A stretch of DNA of 64,000 bases from Microthrixaceae bacterium (GTDB taxonomy: Bacteria > Actinomycetota > Acidimicrobiia > Acidimicrobiales > Poriferisodalaceae), in assembly GCA_011523825.1 (NCBI GenBank), contig WTFX01000026.1, positions 1 through 64,000 on the forward strand, read 5' to 3'. This document shows positions 806 to 64,000 of the stretch, piece after piece (position 1 is the stretch's first letter; each line of letters opens with the position of its first letter). A program made the position numbers and the translations under genes. A model generated the notes under the pieces. The model was not told the DNA's origin and ran no database searches. It was given only the letters and a program-made list of their open reading frames with translations.

Positions 806-3583
806 TCAGCTCCCTGTTCCTAGGCACAGTGCGCCCGGTTGCAGGCACGGATGCGGCGGTGTGGTGATCGGGTAGCAGAACCCTGTGGGGTGTCCGCCGA
901 GGTCAGCGGTCCAGCTTCCGTCACCATTGATGTCGGTGTAGGGCTCGCCGCTGTCCCAGCTGCCGTCGCCGTTGGTGTCGGTGTACGGCTCAGCGTGCCC
1001 GACTGGATACACAGCAGATTGCAGCGTCGGGTCGTGAGAGCAGAGGGGGATGATGACGACTGGGGTCGGGCAGGTGCTCGTCGCGGATGCTGCGGACCAT
1101 GCGCTCCAGGGTCCGAAACTGGACCAGTTTGACCATGTGGATCCGTGCGCGTTAGTGGCCGACACTCGCGCAGAGCCTTGCGCACGAACCCGGACGCTCA
1201 CAATGTCCCCAGCCGCGAGCCCAGCTGTCAGCTCTGCGGGCGGCGCCGCAAGGAACGGAGTCACTGACGGCCACACGAGCGTTGTGACTGTGCCCGAACG
1301 GTCAACCGTGAACTCGATCTGATACTGCTCTATATAACTGGCAGTTCGCGCCTGCCCCCTCCACGAGGCAGTGGCCTTCAGTCCGCCTGAGCCGTCATCA
1401 GCGCAAACCAAAGTCGGGCTCGTCGGGACTGGCGCAGCAGGAGGCGCAGGAGTCGCCGGTGGTGGCGGCGGGGCGGAGCAGATCGGAGTCGTGTGGGTGT
1501 GCCAGCCCGACCATGCGCTCCACAGCGACCATGGCGCCCATACGGTGCCGGTCCATTCGCGTTGGCGTCCGCGGACACGGACTCTGATGTCGATGGTGTT
1601 GAGAGGGTCCTCGGGTCCTTGGAAGGTGTGCTCGCCGGTGACGGCATCACGGGTCGCGGTCAGCGCCCGCCAGACGCTGTTGGGGTCCCGGTATTCGAGG
1701 TCGTATTCGGCTTCGCGTCGCCAGTCGACGGCGGCTTGGTCTTCCCAGGCGGTGCTGATGACGCCGCTGAACTGTCCGGAGTCGCATTCAAGGACCGGTG
1801 CGGGGTCGGGGGGCGTGGCGGGAGCCGGTGGTCGGGTGGTGGGGCATGTTGGCAGGGTGTGCTGCTGATGGGCGCTGGTGGCACCCCAGTCGCTCCACAG
1901 CGACCATGCGCCGTCGATGTTCTGGCGGTGCCGGTACTGACTGGCGATGCTCACCGTCACTGTGTGGAAACGGGAGATGCTGAAGCTGTACAGCCCGTCG
2001 TCGCCGAGGTAGGCCGTGAAGCTGCCGTGAGCACTGATGTAGGGGTTGCCGATGAATTCAGCGATGACATAGGTGCCGACATAGCGGGCTTCGCGTTCCC
2101 AGCCTGCGGGAGCAGCAGGCACGGCGGGGTCGAGGGACACTCGGGCAATCGGGTAGGAGTACTGCGTGGGGTACGGATCGAGGATCGTGTAGGTGTAGAC
2201 GTCGCATTCCACGACCGGCGTCGGAGGGTCAGGCGGGGTGTCGGTGGGCGCGTCGGGGGTCGGCGTGCAGAACTCGGTCGTCTCGTTGACCGACGCGAGT
2301 GTGCGCATCCCTGCGGTCGCGTAGCCGTCGCTGTCCAGGATCGGGGTGACCGCGAGGCTCCAGCCTTTGGAGCGGCCGTTCGCGTAGCCGCTGCTGTACA
2401 CCCACTCCAGCGAGATGTCGATGTTCGTGTCGGGCGAGCTAATCGTCTCGGTGATGCGGACCGCGCCGCCTGCGTAGTCGTAGTAGGACGTGAAGTCGTC
2501 GGGGTTGGTGAAGTACCAGTAGCCGCCCGCCGCCTCCACGACCCAGCCGACGACCTGCGGATTGGTGCCGTCGTCTGTGCCTTGGGTGAACTCGACCCGC
2601 ATGCGCACGGTGCGCATCGGCTCATAGATGCTGGTGTCGTGACGGACCTGGTTGGGATAGTGGCCGTGGTACACGGGAGTGGGGTCCTGCTGCATCACGA
2701 TCGGATGCAGGCACGGCGTCACCCCGACAATCGTGGGCAAATCCACAGCAGGACACGGCGGCGTTTCGAACACATGCCACGCACCGGGCACCACACCGGT
2801 GGTGATGATGTCGGTGGTCGTGGTGCTCCCGTAGCCCGGTGTCGGCAGCGGCCGGGTCTGAGCGCGAGGCACAGCGCCCCACAGACCCCAGATCGTCTCG
2901 GTGCCTTCGTTGTTCCCCGGATCGCGACCCGCGCGGCCTGAGATGCGCACCTGCGTCTGACCCCCGACCGCCGCGGGGACCTCCACGCCGGACAGCGTGG
3001 CGTCGCCGTCAGCGTCCGCCGCGACCTCGAACACTTCCTGCCCGCCGCTGGTCAGCAGCCGAGTCCACACGCCGTCAGAGTCGCCGTAGGGACGATGTTC
3101 GATGATCAACTGCACATAATCGGTGGCGATCGTTCCCGACCTCGCAGCTGCCGCGTCGAAGCGGATCACACTCCCCGCCGTGCACGCCAACGACTCGACC
3201 GACACCGCAGGAGCCAACGGCATGCGCGGACCCACCGTCGGCGCATACCCGCCGTCCCCGAAATCAGGCTGAGGGATGCTCACCCCGTAGGTCGAGACAT
3301 CGTTGATCACATTGATTTCGCAGCCGCCCCCGCACAACTCCTGATACTCGGGATGCTGCTCGAACAACTCGCTGACCGTCGTCTCAGAGAAATAATGCGC
3401 CGGAAGCCCGCCCTGACTGGTCTCCACCTCGATCACACCCGTGTCAGGATTGACTTGGACATCGGTGATCGGGGACTCGGTGCTGTCGCCGTCTATCGCG
3501 GCGGCGGGAGATGCCCACACCGCCAAGACGGTCGCCACAGCAACAGCTGCCGCAATCGTTCTAATGCTTGCTGTGTGCCTCAC
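806..3583 (-). CDS. Large secreted Trp-rich FN3-like protein with C-terminal calcium loops
   Basis: A 925-residue protein with a classical signal peptide (RTIAAAVAVATVLAVWASPAAA, cleavage near residue 29). I use the GTG at 3581-3583. From about residue 430 the chain shows repeated units of roughly 110-130 residues. Each begins after a Pro/Thr linker with a cysteine (VVECD, VLECD, LVCAD) and ends in Trp clusters such as AWSLWSDWG, WSLWSAWSGW and WSNWSSFGPWSAWS before another Cys. This recalls the WSxWS edge of fibronectin-III-like folds, with one disulphide per unit. The C-terminus has two near-identical YTDxNGDGSW loops, which look like calcium sites. It lies 22 bases after a lipoprotein gene and just before the 40-residue membrane peptide. 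A cell-surface or adhesive role is inferred; no enzyme motif is seen. Confidence 0.75.
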   Translation of the reverse strand: MRHTASIRTIAAAVAVATVLAVWASPAAAIDGDSTESPITDVQVNPDTGVIEVETSQGGLPAHYFSETTVSELFEQHPEYQELCGGGCEINVINDVSTYGVSIPQPDFGDGGYAPTVGPRMPLAPAVSVESLACTAGSVIRFDAAAARSGTIATDYVQLIIEHRPYGDSDGVWTRLLTSGGQEVFEVAADADGDATLSGVEVPAAVGGQTQVRISGRAGRDPGNNEGTETIWGLWGAVPRAQTRPLPTPGYGSTTTTDIITTGVVPGAWHVFETPPCPAVDLPTIVGVTPCLHPIVMQQDPTPVYHGHYPNQVRHDTSIYEPMRTVRMRVEFTQGTDDGTNPQVVGWVVEAAGGYWYFTNPDDFTSYYDYAGGAVRITETISSPDTNIDISLEWVYSSGYANGRSKGWSLAVTPILDSDGYATAGMRTLASVNETTEFCTPTPDAPTDTPPDPPTPVVECDVYTYTILDPYPTQYSYPIARVSLDPAVPAAPAGWEREARYVGTYVIAEFIGNPYISAHGSFTAYLGDDGLYSFSISRFHTVTVSIASQYRHRQNIDGAWSLWSDWGATSAHQQHTLPTCPTTRPPAPATPPDPAPVLECDSGQFSGVISTAWEDQAAVDWRREAEYDLEYRDPNSVWRALTATRDAVTGEHTFQGPEDPLNTIDIRVRVRGRQREWTGTVWAPWSLWSAWSGWHTHTTPICSAPPPPPATPAPPAAPVPTSPTLVCADDGSGGLKATASWRGQARTASYIEQYQIEFTVDRSGTVTTLVWPSVTPFLAAPPAELTAGLAAGDIVSVRVRAQGSARVSATNAHGSTWSNWSSFGPWSAWSAASATSTCPTPVVIIPLCSHDPTLQSAVYPVGHAEPYTDTNGDGSWDSGEPYTDINGDGSWTADLGGHPTGFCYPITTPPHPCLQPGALCLGTGS

Positions 3584-60542: not shown

Positions 60543-60690
60543 CGGCGCGCCTGGGTCGTATGACATAGCGGTACGTCATAGATTCCTGAACGACACGGAA
60601 CTGCAATGGCGCTGCGGGAACTGCGACGGGACCATGGGCGTCACTCCGGTAGAGCCGTTCGATGAGCGGCCGACCGAGGGAGGGGACGCC

Positions 60691-62115
60691 ATGACCGTTC
60701 CAAGCAACCGCACGATCACCGGTTCGGTGGCCAGATGGGCACGATGGCTGGCCGTCGCCGTGGCAGTACTGGCCGTGACAGTCCTTGCCGCAGCCTGCGG
60801 TGGCGGGAGCGATGACAGCGACGCGTCCGCCGCCGAAGACGCGCCAGCCGCGACTCTCGCCATGTCTCAAGAGTCCCTCGAGGCCGCTTCGGAAGAGATG
60901 GCTGACGAAGAAATGATGGACATGGACGAATCAGCCAGGGAGGTCCGACTGACTTCGGGCGGCGCCGCCGCGGAGGAGGACATGTCGGACGAATCCGGCA
61001 CCGACACGCTGGCAGCCGGGGTGCCCGCAGTGCCAGCAGATCTCGGGCGGGACATCATCTACACGGCCTGGATAGCTGTGGAGACCGCCGACGTGGCAGC
61101 CGCCGCAGCACAGGCCAACTCGATTATCAGCGGGCTCGGCGGATTCACGTTCTCCCAGGACACCCGCACCCAAGACCGGGCTTACACCACACTGACCTTC
61201 AAGGTCCGGCCCGAGCAGTTCTCGACCGCGTTGGAGCGACTGTCCAACATCGGCGAACTCGTCGAGCAGTCCGTGAACGCCGAGGATGTCACCGACATCG
61301 TCGTGGACCTGAACAGCCGCATCTCGACCGCGGAGATCAGCGTCAACCGGCTGCGCGACTTCCTGTCGCAGGCCACCGACGTGGAAGGCGTGGCCGAGCT
61401 GGAGCGTGAGCTGGCAGACCGCGAGACCAACCTGGAACGGCTCCGTGGACAGTTGCGCTCGCTGCGCGACCGGGTGGACTTGGCCACGATCACGCTGTCG
61501 ATCACGGAGTCCGTCGAGGCGGTGCCGCGCACCTCGGCGATCCTGCGGGCCTGGATGGCCTCCGGCGACGAAGACCCGTGCCTCGGATTCACCGACCTGG
61601 CCGCGCCGCCAGACGGTGATGTGGGTTTCTGCTTCGAGCTGGAGAACGAAGGCGAAACCGTGCTCACCGAGGTGACGCTGAGCTCGAATGAGCTGCGATT
61701 CAACACCGATGACTTGAGCGTCGCCGAAGGGACCGTTCTCGAGCGAATCGAACCTGGCGAGCGGGCGGTCGCCACGCTGAGCCTGCCCGTCACGGACGGG
61801 CGCATCGCTGGGCGGGTGGCGACCCGCGGGCTGGAGATCAACGTTCGCTTGAGCGCGGTGCCGGTCACCGAAACCGGCACCGAACTGGCTCGACTCGCCC
61901 GCAGCCACGGCTTGTATCTCTTTGTCGAAGAAGAAGACACCCCACCGAGCTTCGGCGATGCGCTGAGCGGCGGCTGGAATGCGCTCGTGGCCGTGGGCAA
62001 CGGCGTGCTGCTGGTCATCGGTGCACTGCTGCCGTTCCTGCCGGTCATCTTGATCGCTCTGGCGGTGGCGTGGTGGCGGCTGCAGCGCCGCCGTGCTCGC
62101 CGTGCCGATGGCTGA
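60691..62115 (+). CDS. DUF4349-domain lipoprotein
   Basis: 474 residues from ATG 60691, after GGGAGGGGA. Lipoprotein signal WLAVAVAVLAVTVLAAAC (Cys about 36), acidic low-complexity part (about 40-120), and a DUF4349 domain (about 125-290): RDIIYTAWIAVETADVAAAAAQANSIISGLGGF through LNSRISTAEISVNRLRDFLSQATDVEGVAELERELADRETNLERLRGQL (coiled coil) and DLATITLSITE. A C-terminal membrane helix (about 435-460) and basic tail follow. Function unknown. A small inverted repeat TATGAC/GTCATA lies upstream at 60559-60580. Confidence 0.85.
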   Translation: MTVPSNRTITGSVARWARWLAVAVAVLAVTVLAAACGGGSDDSDASAAEDAPAATLAMSQESLEAASEEMADEEMMDMDESAREVRLTSGGAAAEEDMSDESGTDTLAAGVPAVPADLGRDIIYTAWIAVETADVAAAAAQANSIISGLGGFTFSQDTRTQDRAYTTLTFKVRPEQFSTALERLSNIGELVEQSVNAEDVTDIVVDLNSRISTAEISVNRLRDFLSQATDVEGVAELERELADRETNLERLRGQLRSLRDRVDLATITLSITESVEAVPRTSAILRAWMASGDEDPCLGFTDLAAPPDGDVGFCFELENEGETVLTEVTLSSNELRFNTDDLSVAEGTVLERIEPGERAVATLSLPVTDGRIAGRVATRGLEINVRLSAVPVTETGTELARLARSHGLYLFVEEEDTPPSFGDALSGGWNALVAVGNGVLLVIGALLPFLPVILIALAVAWWRLQRRRARRADG

Positions 62116-62117
62116 GT

Positions 62118-62159
62118 CGGACAATTCCGGACAGGCTCCGGGATGTCCGTTTTTGTCCG
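62118..62159. promoter_or_regulatory. Four-hexamer dyad (CGGACA x2, TGTCCG x2) upstream of the repair fusion
   Basis: CGGACA at 62118-62123 and 62128-62133, then TGTCCG at 62144-62149 and 62154-62159. Each same-strand pair is spaced exactly 10 bases, one helical turn, and the array is symmetrical about 62138.5. It lies 24 bases before the ATG of the AdaA-AlkA gene. It could bind a dimeric regulator, possibly the AraC-type HTH of that protein. The inner hexamers plus five T's (62128-62154) could also work as a terminator for the DUF4349 gene. Confidence 0.6.
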
Positions 62160-62183
62160 GTACAAGCCCGCCAGACTGCTCGC

Positions 62184-63632
62184 ATGCAGGTCGAGGCCGT
62201 TCGCACCACGGGCATCTACTGCCGGGCAGATTGCTCGGCTGAGCCGCTGCCCCAGAACGTCACGCACTATTCCAACCCCGTGGCGGCCGAAGTCGCCGGC
62301 TTCCGGCCGTGCCTGCGCTGCCATCCAGAACGCCGCGCCGGCTCCCTGGCCGATCTCGACGTGCCCGCACCAGTGGGAGCTGCGCTGTTGCGGATCAACG
62401 ACGGCTACCTCGACGACCACGACGAAGACGCCCTGGCGGCACAGGTGGGCTACAGCGCCCGGCAGCTTCGACGGCTGTTCGAACAGCATGTCGGGGCGAC
62501 ACCCACCACCATCGCCCGCTCACGGCGAGCGCACTTCGCGCGCTGCCTCATCGACGACACCGATCTGACGTTCACCGAGATTGCCCGCGCCGCAGGATTC
62601 GGCGGAGCTCGGCAACTGCACCGGGCAATGACCTCGGTGTTCTGCTTCACACCGACTGAGCTGCGCTCCAAGCGACGCCGCAGCGACTACGCCGAGCTCG
62701 ACGGGGGTCTGGTCCTGGAGGTGCCCGCCCTGACGCCCTACGACTTCGGCACGTTCGTCGCACACCAGGACTGCCGGGCGATCCCCGGCGTGGAAGCAGT
62801 GGCCAGCGACACGGCCGGAACGACCTACGTGCGCAGCTTCAGTGCCTGTGGGCATCCGGGCATCGCTGAAGTGACGGCACCCTCACACGGCGGCAACGAC
62901 AGCTTGCAGCTGCGGCTGCACCTGCCGACCTACGACTCGATCATCGATGCTGTGAGTCGGGTCCGAGCACTGCTGGGAACCGACGAAGACCCGGCGCCAG
63001 TGACCGCAGCGCTGGAAGGCGACCCCATGATCGGCCCACTGGTGCGAGCAGCACCGGGACTGCGCGTGCCGCGCTCATGGGATCGTTTCGAGACCGCTGT
63101 GCGGATCATCGTTGGGCAGCAGATCTCGCTCGCAGCCGCCTCCACGCTCAGCGGCCGCATCGCCGAGCGCTTCGGCACGCCGATCGATCCCGTGCTGGAG
63201 TGCTGCGACGACGTCTTGGTGCCGCTCACCCACCTGTTTCCGGGCGCCGCGACGCTTGCCAGCGCCGGTGGGGCGGGATTCGCCGGCCTGGGGTTCACCC
63301 AGCAGCGCATCGACACCATCGTCGGCTTCTCCCAAGCGGTCGCCGACGGCGAGTTTGACCTGAGCGCCGCAGACACGCTGGATGCGACCGTCGCCCGGCT
63401 CTGCGAGCTGCCGGGGATCGGCCCGTGGACAGCGCACCTCATCGCCATGCGCGTCTTCGGCCATGACGACGCGTTCCCGGCGTCCGATCTGGGTTTGCGG
63501 CGTGCAGCGGAGCGCTTGGCCGGCCACCCGGTCAGTGCCCGAGAACTCGAGGCTCTCGCGGACAGCTGGCGCCCGTACCGTTCGTGGGCCGCGCAGCACC
63601 TCTGGCATGGCGGCCGCCAATCCGCTCGCTGA
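62184..63632 (+). CDS. AdaA-AlkA fusion: phosphotriester-sensing regulator and 3-methyladenine DNA glycosylase
   Basis: 482 residues from ATG 62184. Domains: Ada zinc domain (about 4-50) with all four Cys, VRTTGIYCRADCSAEPL and PCLRCHPE; AraC-type HTH (about 65-150; ALAAQVGYSARQLRRLFEQHVGATP); AlkA N-terminal (about 170-265) and HhH glycosylase (about 290-470) with LCELPGIGPWTAHLIAMRVFGHDDAFPASDLGL holding the catalytic Asp. The Ada part lacks the usual DGxF residues before VRTTG, so the N-terminus is shorter than usual. It senses methylated DNA, regulates and excises alkylated bases. ogt follows 66 bases later. Confidence 0.92.
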   Translation: MQVEAVRTTGIYCRADCSAEPLPQNVTHYSNPVAAEVAGFRPCLRCHPERRAGSLADLDVPAPVGAALLRINDGYLDDHDEDALAAQVGYSARQLRRLFEQHVGATPTTIARSRRAHFARCLIDDTDLTFTEIARAAGFGGARQLHRAMTSVFCFTPTELRSKRRRSDYAELDGGLVLEVPALTPYDFGTFVAHQDCRAIPGVEAVASDTAGTTYVRSFSACGHPGIAEVTAPSHGGNDSLQLRLHLPTYDSIIDAVSRVRALLGTDEDPAPVTAALEGDPMIGPLVRAAPGLRVPRSWDRFETAVRIIVGQQISLAAASTLSGRIAERFGTPIDPVLECCDDVLVPLTHLFPGAATLASAGGAGFAGLGFTQQRIDTIVGFSQAVADGEFDLSAADTLDATVARLCELPGIGPWTAHLIAMRVFGHDDAFPASDLGLRRAAERLAGHPVSARELEALADSWRPYRSWAAQHLWHGGRQSAR

Positions 63633-63698: not shown

Positions 63699-64000
63699 AT
63701 GAGCACCGACACCCATTGGCATACGACCGTCGACAGCCCCATCGGGCCATTGGGCTTGGTGGCCACCGATACGGGACTGCGTGCCGTGTCGTGGCGCGGT
63801 GACGAGACCTCCGTCAAGCTGCCCGACGACATGGCCGAGGATGCTGAGCATCCGATCCTGCAGCGCGCTGCGCAGCAGCTCGACGAGTACTTCGACGGGA
63901 CGCGCACCAGCTTCGACCTTCCGCTGGACCTGCGCGGCACGCCATTCCAAGAGGCCGCCTGGCGCGCACTCGGCGACATCCCCTACGGCAGCACCCGCAG
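63699..64000 (+). CDS. ogt: Methylated-DNA-[protein]-cysteine S-methyltransferase, partial
   Basis: The first 100 codons only; the gene runs off the window. AGGAG precedes ATG 63699. The N-terminal domain (HTTVDSPIGPLGLVATDTGLRAVSW) and the helix GTPFQEAAWRALGDIPYGSTR just before the PCHR active-site motif identify the O6-alkylguanine repair family. It directly follows the AdaA-AlkA gene, making an alkylation-repair operon. Confidence 0.9.
   Translation, partial: MSTDTHWHTTVDSPIGPLGLVATDTGLRAVSWRGDETSVKLPDDMAEDAEHPILQRAAQQLDEYFDGTRTSFDLPLDLRGTPFQEAAWRALGDIPYGSTR

Follow-up and report, generated by a model that had tools for sequence, protein, structure and literature searches.

In Escherichia coli the Ada box, AAT-N6-GCAA, lies in the ada, alkA and aidB promoters (PMC3788762), and methyl transfer to Cys38 of Ada switches on sequence-specific binding (PMC10957082, PMC3788762). 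In Caulobacter, the site of Cada2 consists of a B box, GCAA, and an X box, CGG (about 10 bp, not inverted; PMC10957082). When M. tuberculosis is treated with MNNG, only alkA (ada-alkA) and ogt are induced (PMC5057432). How Actinobacteria, M. tuberculosis among them, control their adaptive response has been described as still largely unknown (PMC7432924), and no operator for the mycobacterial ada operon is described in the open-access literature that we found.

The window analyzed here, a stretch of 64,000 nucleotides from a Microthrixaceae bacterium, carries a predicted four-hexamer operator array before its ada-alkA gene, CGGACA-N4-CGGACA-N10-TGTCCG-N4-TGTCCG (62118..62159, no strand assigned), recognized by its sequence and its conservation in relatives. 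We consider it highly probable that this array is the autoregulatory operator of ada-alkA(-ogt), bound by the AraC-type protein Ada-AlkA and acting in activation after methylation. Like the E. coli Ada box, it would let an Ada-family methyl sensor regulate its own gene, through two half-elements that lie about one turn from each other, upstream of the -35 region (PMC3788762). However, the E. coli box is single and asymmetric and controls several promoters, while the array is made of inverted pairs of identical hexamers of unrelated sequence, with a single target and a predicted leaderless promoter. The array does lie in the promoter of an ada gene itself, but AAT-N6-GCAA is absent from it and it is therefore not classed as an E. 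coli Ada box. Cada2 is similar in being a self-regulating Ada-type regulator with two helix-turn-helix motifs (HTHs) that uses other, GC-rich half-sites (PMC10957082); it differs in having no Ada Zn domain and in being switched by its methyltransferase Cys. The mycobacterial ada operon (ada-alkA, ogt) has the gene fusion and gene order of the window, but a full-length Ada domain and, in our phylum set, a single site of the canonical type described below. MarA/AraC-type sites are about 16-17 bp long and accommodate two HTHs in successive major grooves; HTH_18 is the common element, whereas in the array the half-sites are identical and the arms inverted and helically phased. In the open-access literature searched we found neither the actinobacterial canonical site nor the inverted array; no paper there connects TGTCCG with Ada, and the canonical strings lead to unrelated papers. 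Both appear, as sequences, to be new beside the Ada boxes already known (AAT-N6-GCAA; GCAA plus CGG for Cada2).

Sequence and geometry of the array

CGGACA is found on the plus strand at 62118-62123 and 62128-62133, and TGTCCG at 62144-62149 and 62154-62159, with the symmetry point at 62138.5. This agrees with an earlier note on this DNA, which had described four hexamers arranged symmetrically about one point. The left arm (62118..62133), which reads TGTCCG-N4-TGTCCG on the minus strand, is predicted from relatives to be the distal, inverted monomer site of an AraC-type protein, and is degenerate or missing in some of them. The right arm, TGTCCG-N4-TGTCCG (62144..62159, plus strand), is oriented like the canonical site that full-length Ada-AlkA genes have in single copy, and its end lies 24 nt before the ada-alkA ATG. 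Each arm contains a 10-bp repeat, the half-element spacing of AraC/MarA-type sites, and this repeat is present in all relatives having both hexamers.

By itself, CGGACA is no commoner in the window than expected (40 occurrences, against 58 by expectation). A chance scan for any hexamer W in the arrangement W-Nd-W-Nm-W'-Nd-W' (d 0-10, m 0-30) returned the present array as the single case in the window and nothing in 40 Markov-simulated windows, so that the spacing is indeed unlikely by chance, as had been claimed. In the 3.3-Mb genome, exact CGGACA-N4-CGGACA occurs as the two arms of the array and at one other place, inside a coding region. The array was also considered as a repeat element or a regulon site and rejected as such: elsewhere in the genus TGTCCG-N4-TGTCCG is matched no more often than by chance, as judged by a reversed-pattern control, and the two exact recurrent matches inspected (L163 and L003) are coding, that in L003 lying within a dehydrogenase ORF. 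The sequence TGTCCGACCATGTCCG, recurrent in the genus (L163, about 1500; G006, G009, G010, G002, G008), marks where the coding sequence of an enoyl-CoA hydratase-like gene begins (codons M-S-D-H-V). The pattern scan allowing 3 mismatches was too loose, ada-alkA excepted. The damage promoter of PafBC/RecA-NDp type has the consensus TTGTCRGTG-N8-TANNNT. Inspection by eye gave TTGTCCGGT at 62153, followed by N8 and GCCAGA, with no TANNNT at that spacing.

Neighboring genes and predicted promoter

The upstream gene, encoding a DUF4349 protein (60634..62115, plus strand), stops 2 nt before the array and is not its constant neighbor. A similar C-terminus is found upstream of the array in L049 and L056, and a different gene is there in other relatives. 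A predicted -10 element, CAGACT (62172..62177, plus strand), lies 6 nt before the start codon of ada-alkA. The sequence GCCAGACT is invariant in the aligned relatives and the ATG is conserved too (CAGACT, 6 nt, ATG). In L051 the triplet at 3001-3003 is ATA where all relatives have the ada-alkA ATG, which may be a non-standard start, a sign that a later GTG is used, or a sequencing error. In the loci with the canonical site, a NANNNT hexamer precedes the start codon at the same distance as CAGACT in the window. A sigma-70 promoter scan found none. We infer from these sequences that the promoter is leaderless and that +1 coincides with the start codon or adjoins it; if the ATG is +1, the array extends from -66 to -25. 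Downstream, after a gap of 66 nt and with AGGAG before its ATG, is an ogt/MGMT gene (6-O-methylguanine methyltransferase, Pfam; 63699..64000, plus strand), of which the N-terminal part is present before it runs off the window. It is probably the second gene of an ada-alkA operon, and the order ada-alkA, ogt is identical in M. tuberculosis (PMC5057432).

Conservation in relatives and the hairpin

Of 61 related genomes, 56 have an ada-alkA gene, and a second collection contributed 13 loci. Every species of the genus that we examined has the four hexamers at the same position, and they also occur in other families, always before ada-alkA; the array thus passes the conservation check proposed in the earlier note. 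Over 16 loci, two other genera included, 373 of 384 hexamer bases (97%) match CGGACA/TGTCCG, whereas pairwise identity in the N4 spacers of the same loci is 52 to 62%, and most of these spacers are not complementary. The gene upstream differs between species while the array is constant. The inner spacer falls into two classes, 10-12 or 21-23 bp, as does the distance from the right arm to the start codon, 23-24 or 33-35 nt; L150 is an exception (spacer 9 or 19, with one mismatch; distance 37), and L014-L016 and L079 have no clear left arm. In L014 and L096 the palindrome GGGGTCAGACCCCTA occurs twice beside the right arm, in the left-arm position, upstream of ada-alkA. Rayleigh tests of the phasing are indicative only, as their input list had been thinned by hand. 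The whole-turn spacing classes suggest that the proteins sit on one face of the helix. Because the hexamers are constant while the spacers, the upstream gene and the hairpin with its T-run vary, the array has the features of a protein site, as had been suggested, and the comparison of sequences supports that reading.

The same DNA folds into a terminator-like, species-specific hairpin with a T-run (62118..62154, plus strand). The predicted RNA stem joins the outer left hexamer (62118) to the inner right hexamer (62144), extended by TTCCGGA/TCCGGGA, and has 13 bp followed by T5, behind the DUF4349 stop (z -3.5); one terminator-like match was found on the plus strand, against 0.2 expected over both strands. 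These figures would suit an intrinsic terminator serving the DUF4349 gene, or an attenuator, an RNA hairpin in the leader of ada-alkA. We regard both as extremely improbable explanations of the array, since relatives have another stem or no T-run and the two occur together only in the species of the window (L044 keeps T5 but not the stem), the N4 spacers mostly cannot pair, and the hexamers are invariant rather than compensated. In addition, the upstream genes differ among relatives, the predicted transcription start is downstream of the array, and hairpin folding is expected of any inverted operator. A terminator or attenuator as the main function was therefore rejected, the hairpin with T-run not being conserved. 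The earlier proposal that the inner pair and the T-run form a terminator holds for this species as regards hairpin and T-run, but the stem is outer-left with inner-right and is not conserved. Termination as a second function of the array is weakly supported; it is possible that the hairpin ends the DUF4349 transcript in this species, as a by-product.

The Ada-AlkA protein

The ada-alkA gene (62184..63632, plus strand) encodes an Ada Zn domain, an HTH_18 region with two HTHs, AlkA_N and an HhH-GPD glycosylase domain, according to Pfam, PDB matches and a structure model. The Ada Zn domain (PF02805, E 2.4e-16) covers Pfam positions 20-65, the first 19 profile positions being missing, and keeps all four cysteines, Cys13, 17, 43 and 46, acceptor included. 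HTH_18 (E 1.3e-17), AlkA_N and HhH-GPD were also detected by Pfam. The protein thus combines the four-Cys Ada Zn domain of the Ada-AlkA family with its AraC-type HTH pair and AlkA glycosylase, and by its N-terminally shortened Ada domain it is a shortened subtype of that family. The recognition helix of HTH1 is ARQLRRLFEQH (residues 92-102; 62457..62489, plus strand; alignment and model), and that of HTH2 is ARQLHRAMTSVF (residues 142-153; 62607..62642, plus strand), in which the canonical D/E is replaced by R. The model, with mean pLDDT 85, has the recognition helices at these residues. PDB sequence matches included N-Ada (1wpk, 1u8b), an AraC domain (3oio) and AlkA (1diz), and the fold search result, which covers the AlkA part, matched the AlkA fold with Z 34.9 and 2.1 A over 278 residues. 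Weaker Ada Zn domains are present in proteins of about 260-400 aa in several Acidimicrobiia families (G072, G093, G101, G132, G143, G168 and others); these shorter proteins are not of Ada-AlkA build.

From a single site to four hexamers

Across the class and phylum, genes for full-length Ada-AlkA have one 17-bp site, TGTC[C/G/T]GAWWYCCGCYAG. With at most 2 mismatches it was found at 76 loci (shuffled sequences give about 5.7), and in 74 of these it ends 32-34 nt before the start codon, for which we took the first in-frame start lying at least 25 nt beyond the site. An exact search of 30 genomes gave 19 matches in 18 genomes, and comparison of match coordinates with ada-alkA loci placed all 19 directly before ada-alkA, with none for the reversed-pattern control; the canonical site is therefore specific to ada-alkA. 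One genome (G426) has two ada-alkA genes (C8:21257 and C30:50550; L112 and L159), each with its own exact 17-bp site. In the genome of the window, matches to the 17-mer (1-2 mismatches) do not exceed chance level; the operator was thus a replacement and not an addition.

The inverted form of the site goes with proteins having a shortened Ada domain (profile start about position 18). At these loci the proximal half is CGTCCAG (L090), CGTCCAT (L087), CGTCCGA (L150), TGTCGC (L081) or TGTCCG (L089, L021, L025 and the genus), while the canonical one is CCGCCAG. In parallel, the HTH2 recognition helix changes from RQFND/E in canonical proteins to RQ[M/L/F]xR in shortened-Ada proteins. Both groups share the distal half TGTCCG and, in HTH1, the R-x-x-x-R. 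In the window, HTH2 (ARQLHRA) is nearly identical to HTH1 (ARQLRRL), just as the two hexamers of an arm are identical. D versus R in HTH2, set against CGC versus GTC/GGC in the half-site, gives 43:1 versus 0:30 (Fisher 7e-20), a p-value that overstates the correlation, because on the tree operator and HTH2 change on one branch only, as one event. L015 and L016 have R in HTH2 yet a CCGGCTG half, thus the HTH2 residue alone does not fix the half-site sequence. In a nested clade (L020, L022, L024, L026-L028) the HTH helices are degenerate, the four Cys are kept and the operator is lost; a better -10, GATACT, stands next to a GTG start, and the enzyme is perhaps constitutive.

The array of the window accordingly looks like a derived form, in which TGTCCG took the place of the proximal half CCGCCAG and duplication of the site produced an inverted pair; the operator change coincides with the D/E-to-R switch in HTH2 and with the shortened Ada domain. 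We tentatively propose, at slightly below even chances, that a transcription factor and its sole operator co-evolved in one actinobacterial clade: as HTH2 went from RQFND/E to RQxxR and came to resemble HTH1, the asymmetric 17-bp site would have become a pair of identical hexamers, and a later inverted duplication of that pair would have yielded a cooperative two-molecule methylation switch at a leaderless promoter.

The array might instead serve another regulator, such as an unknown AraC-type or damage regulator, given that the role of Ada-AlkA is argued from sequence and that these genomes encode further AraC-type proteins. This is very unlikely, since exact canonical matches in the 30 genomes searched occur only before ada-alkA, both copies in the two-copy genome included, the operator form tracks HTH2 of Ada-AlkA, and the clade with degenerate Ada-AlkA HTHs has lost the operator. 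An Ada-type protein as the regulator, which had been offered as a possibility, agrees with how the site is built, with its having a single target and with the operator and the second HTH having changed in parallel.

Proposed mode of action

With Ada-AlkA as the binding protein, each arm would be the site of one AraC-type monomer, one hexamer per HTH, and the inverted arms would bring two molecules face to face. A methyl group passed from damaged DNA to Cys13 of the Ada Zn domain would lead to tight binding to the array, and the methylated protein would recruit RNA polymerase to the leaderless promoter (CAGACT, 6 nt, ATG), giving more Ada-AlkA and Ogt in a positive feedback. We infer the binding protein, the assignment of HTHs to hexamers and the methyl switch from the anatomy of Ada-AlkA and by analogy with E. 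coli Ada.

By the same analogy, activation after methylation is the most likely sign of regulation. In the reverse arrangement, with operator and protein unchanged, unmethylated Ada-AlkA would sit on the -35 region as a repressor and be released by methylation; the right arm (-40 to -25) does overlap that region, where a good -35 element is lacking. We think repression unlikely, because the canonical site, which spans roughly -50 to -34, has the usual class II activator position, a weak -10 with an absent -35 is as in activator-dependent promoters, and the operator-less clade has the better -10, GATACT. To our knowledge, moreover, all characterized Ada proteins activate when methylated.

Autoregulation by Ada-AlkA is supported by conservation, helical phasing, the fixed distance to the start codon, the single target and the way in which operator and HTH2 changed together. 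Against the operator reading we count the one-event correlation, the unclear left arm in L014-L016 and L079, and the ATA in L051. The Ada-AlkA of M. smegmatis has been reported to bind DNA without sequence specificity, which also counts against an autoregulatory operator; the probe was not designed from the array or 17-mer site, and apparently no methylation was involved (PMC7432924).

Significance

The 17-bp site, found generally once per genome and only before ada-alkA, at a fixed distance to a predicted leaderless start, is a concrete target for footprinting and reporters. The MNNG response of M. tuberculosis fits what would be expected of a one-site, single-target switch, and a 17-bp site of this kind would explain why only the ada-alkA/ogt operon is induced there. 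The array in the window may then be read as an example of a one-regulator, one-site pair that was rebuilt in evolution.
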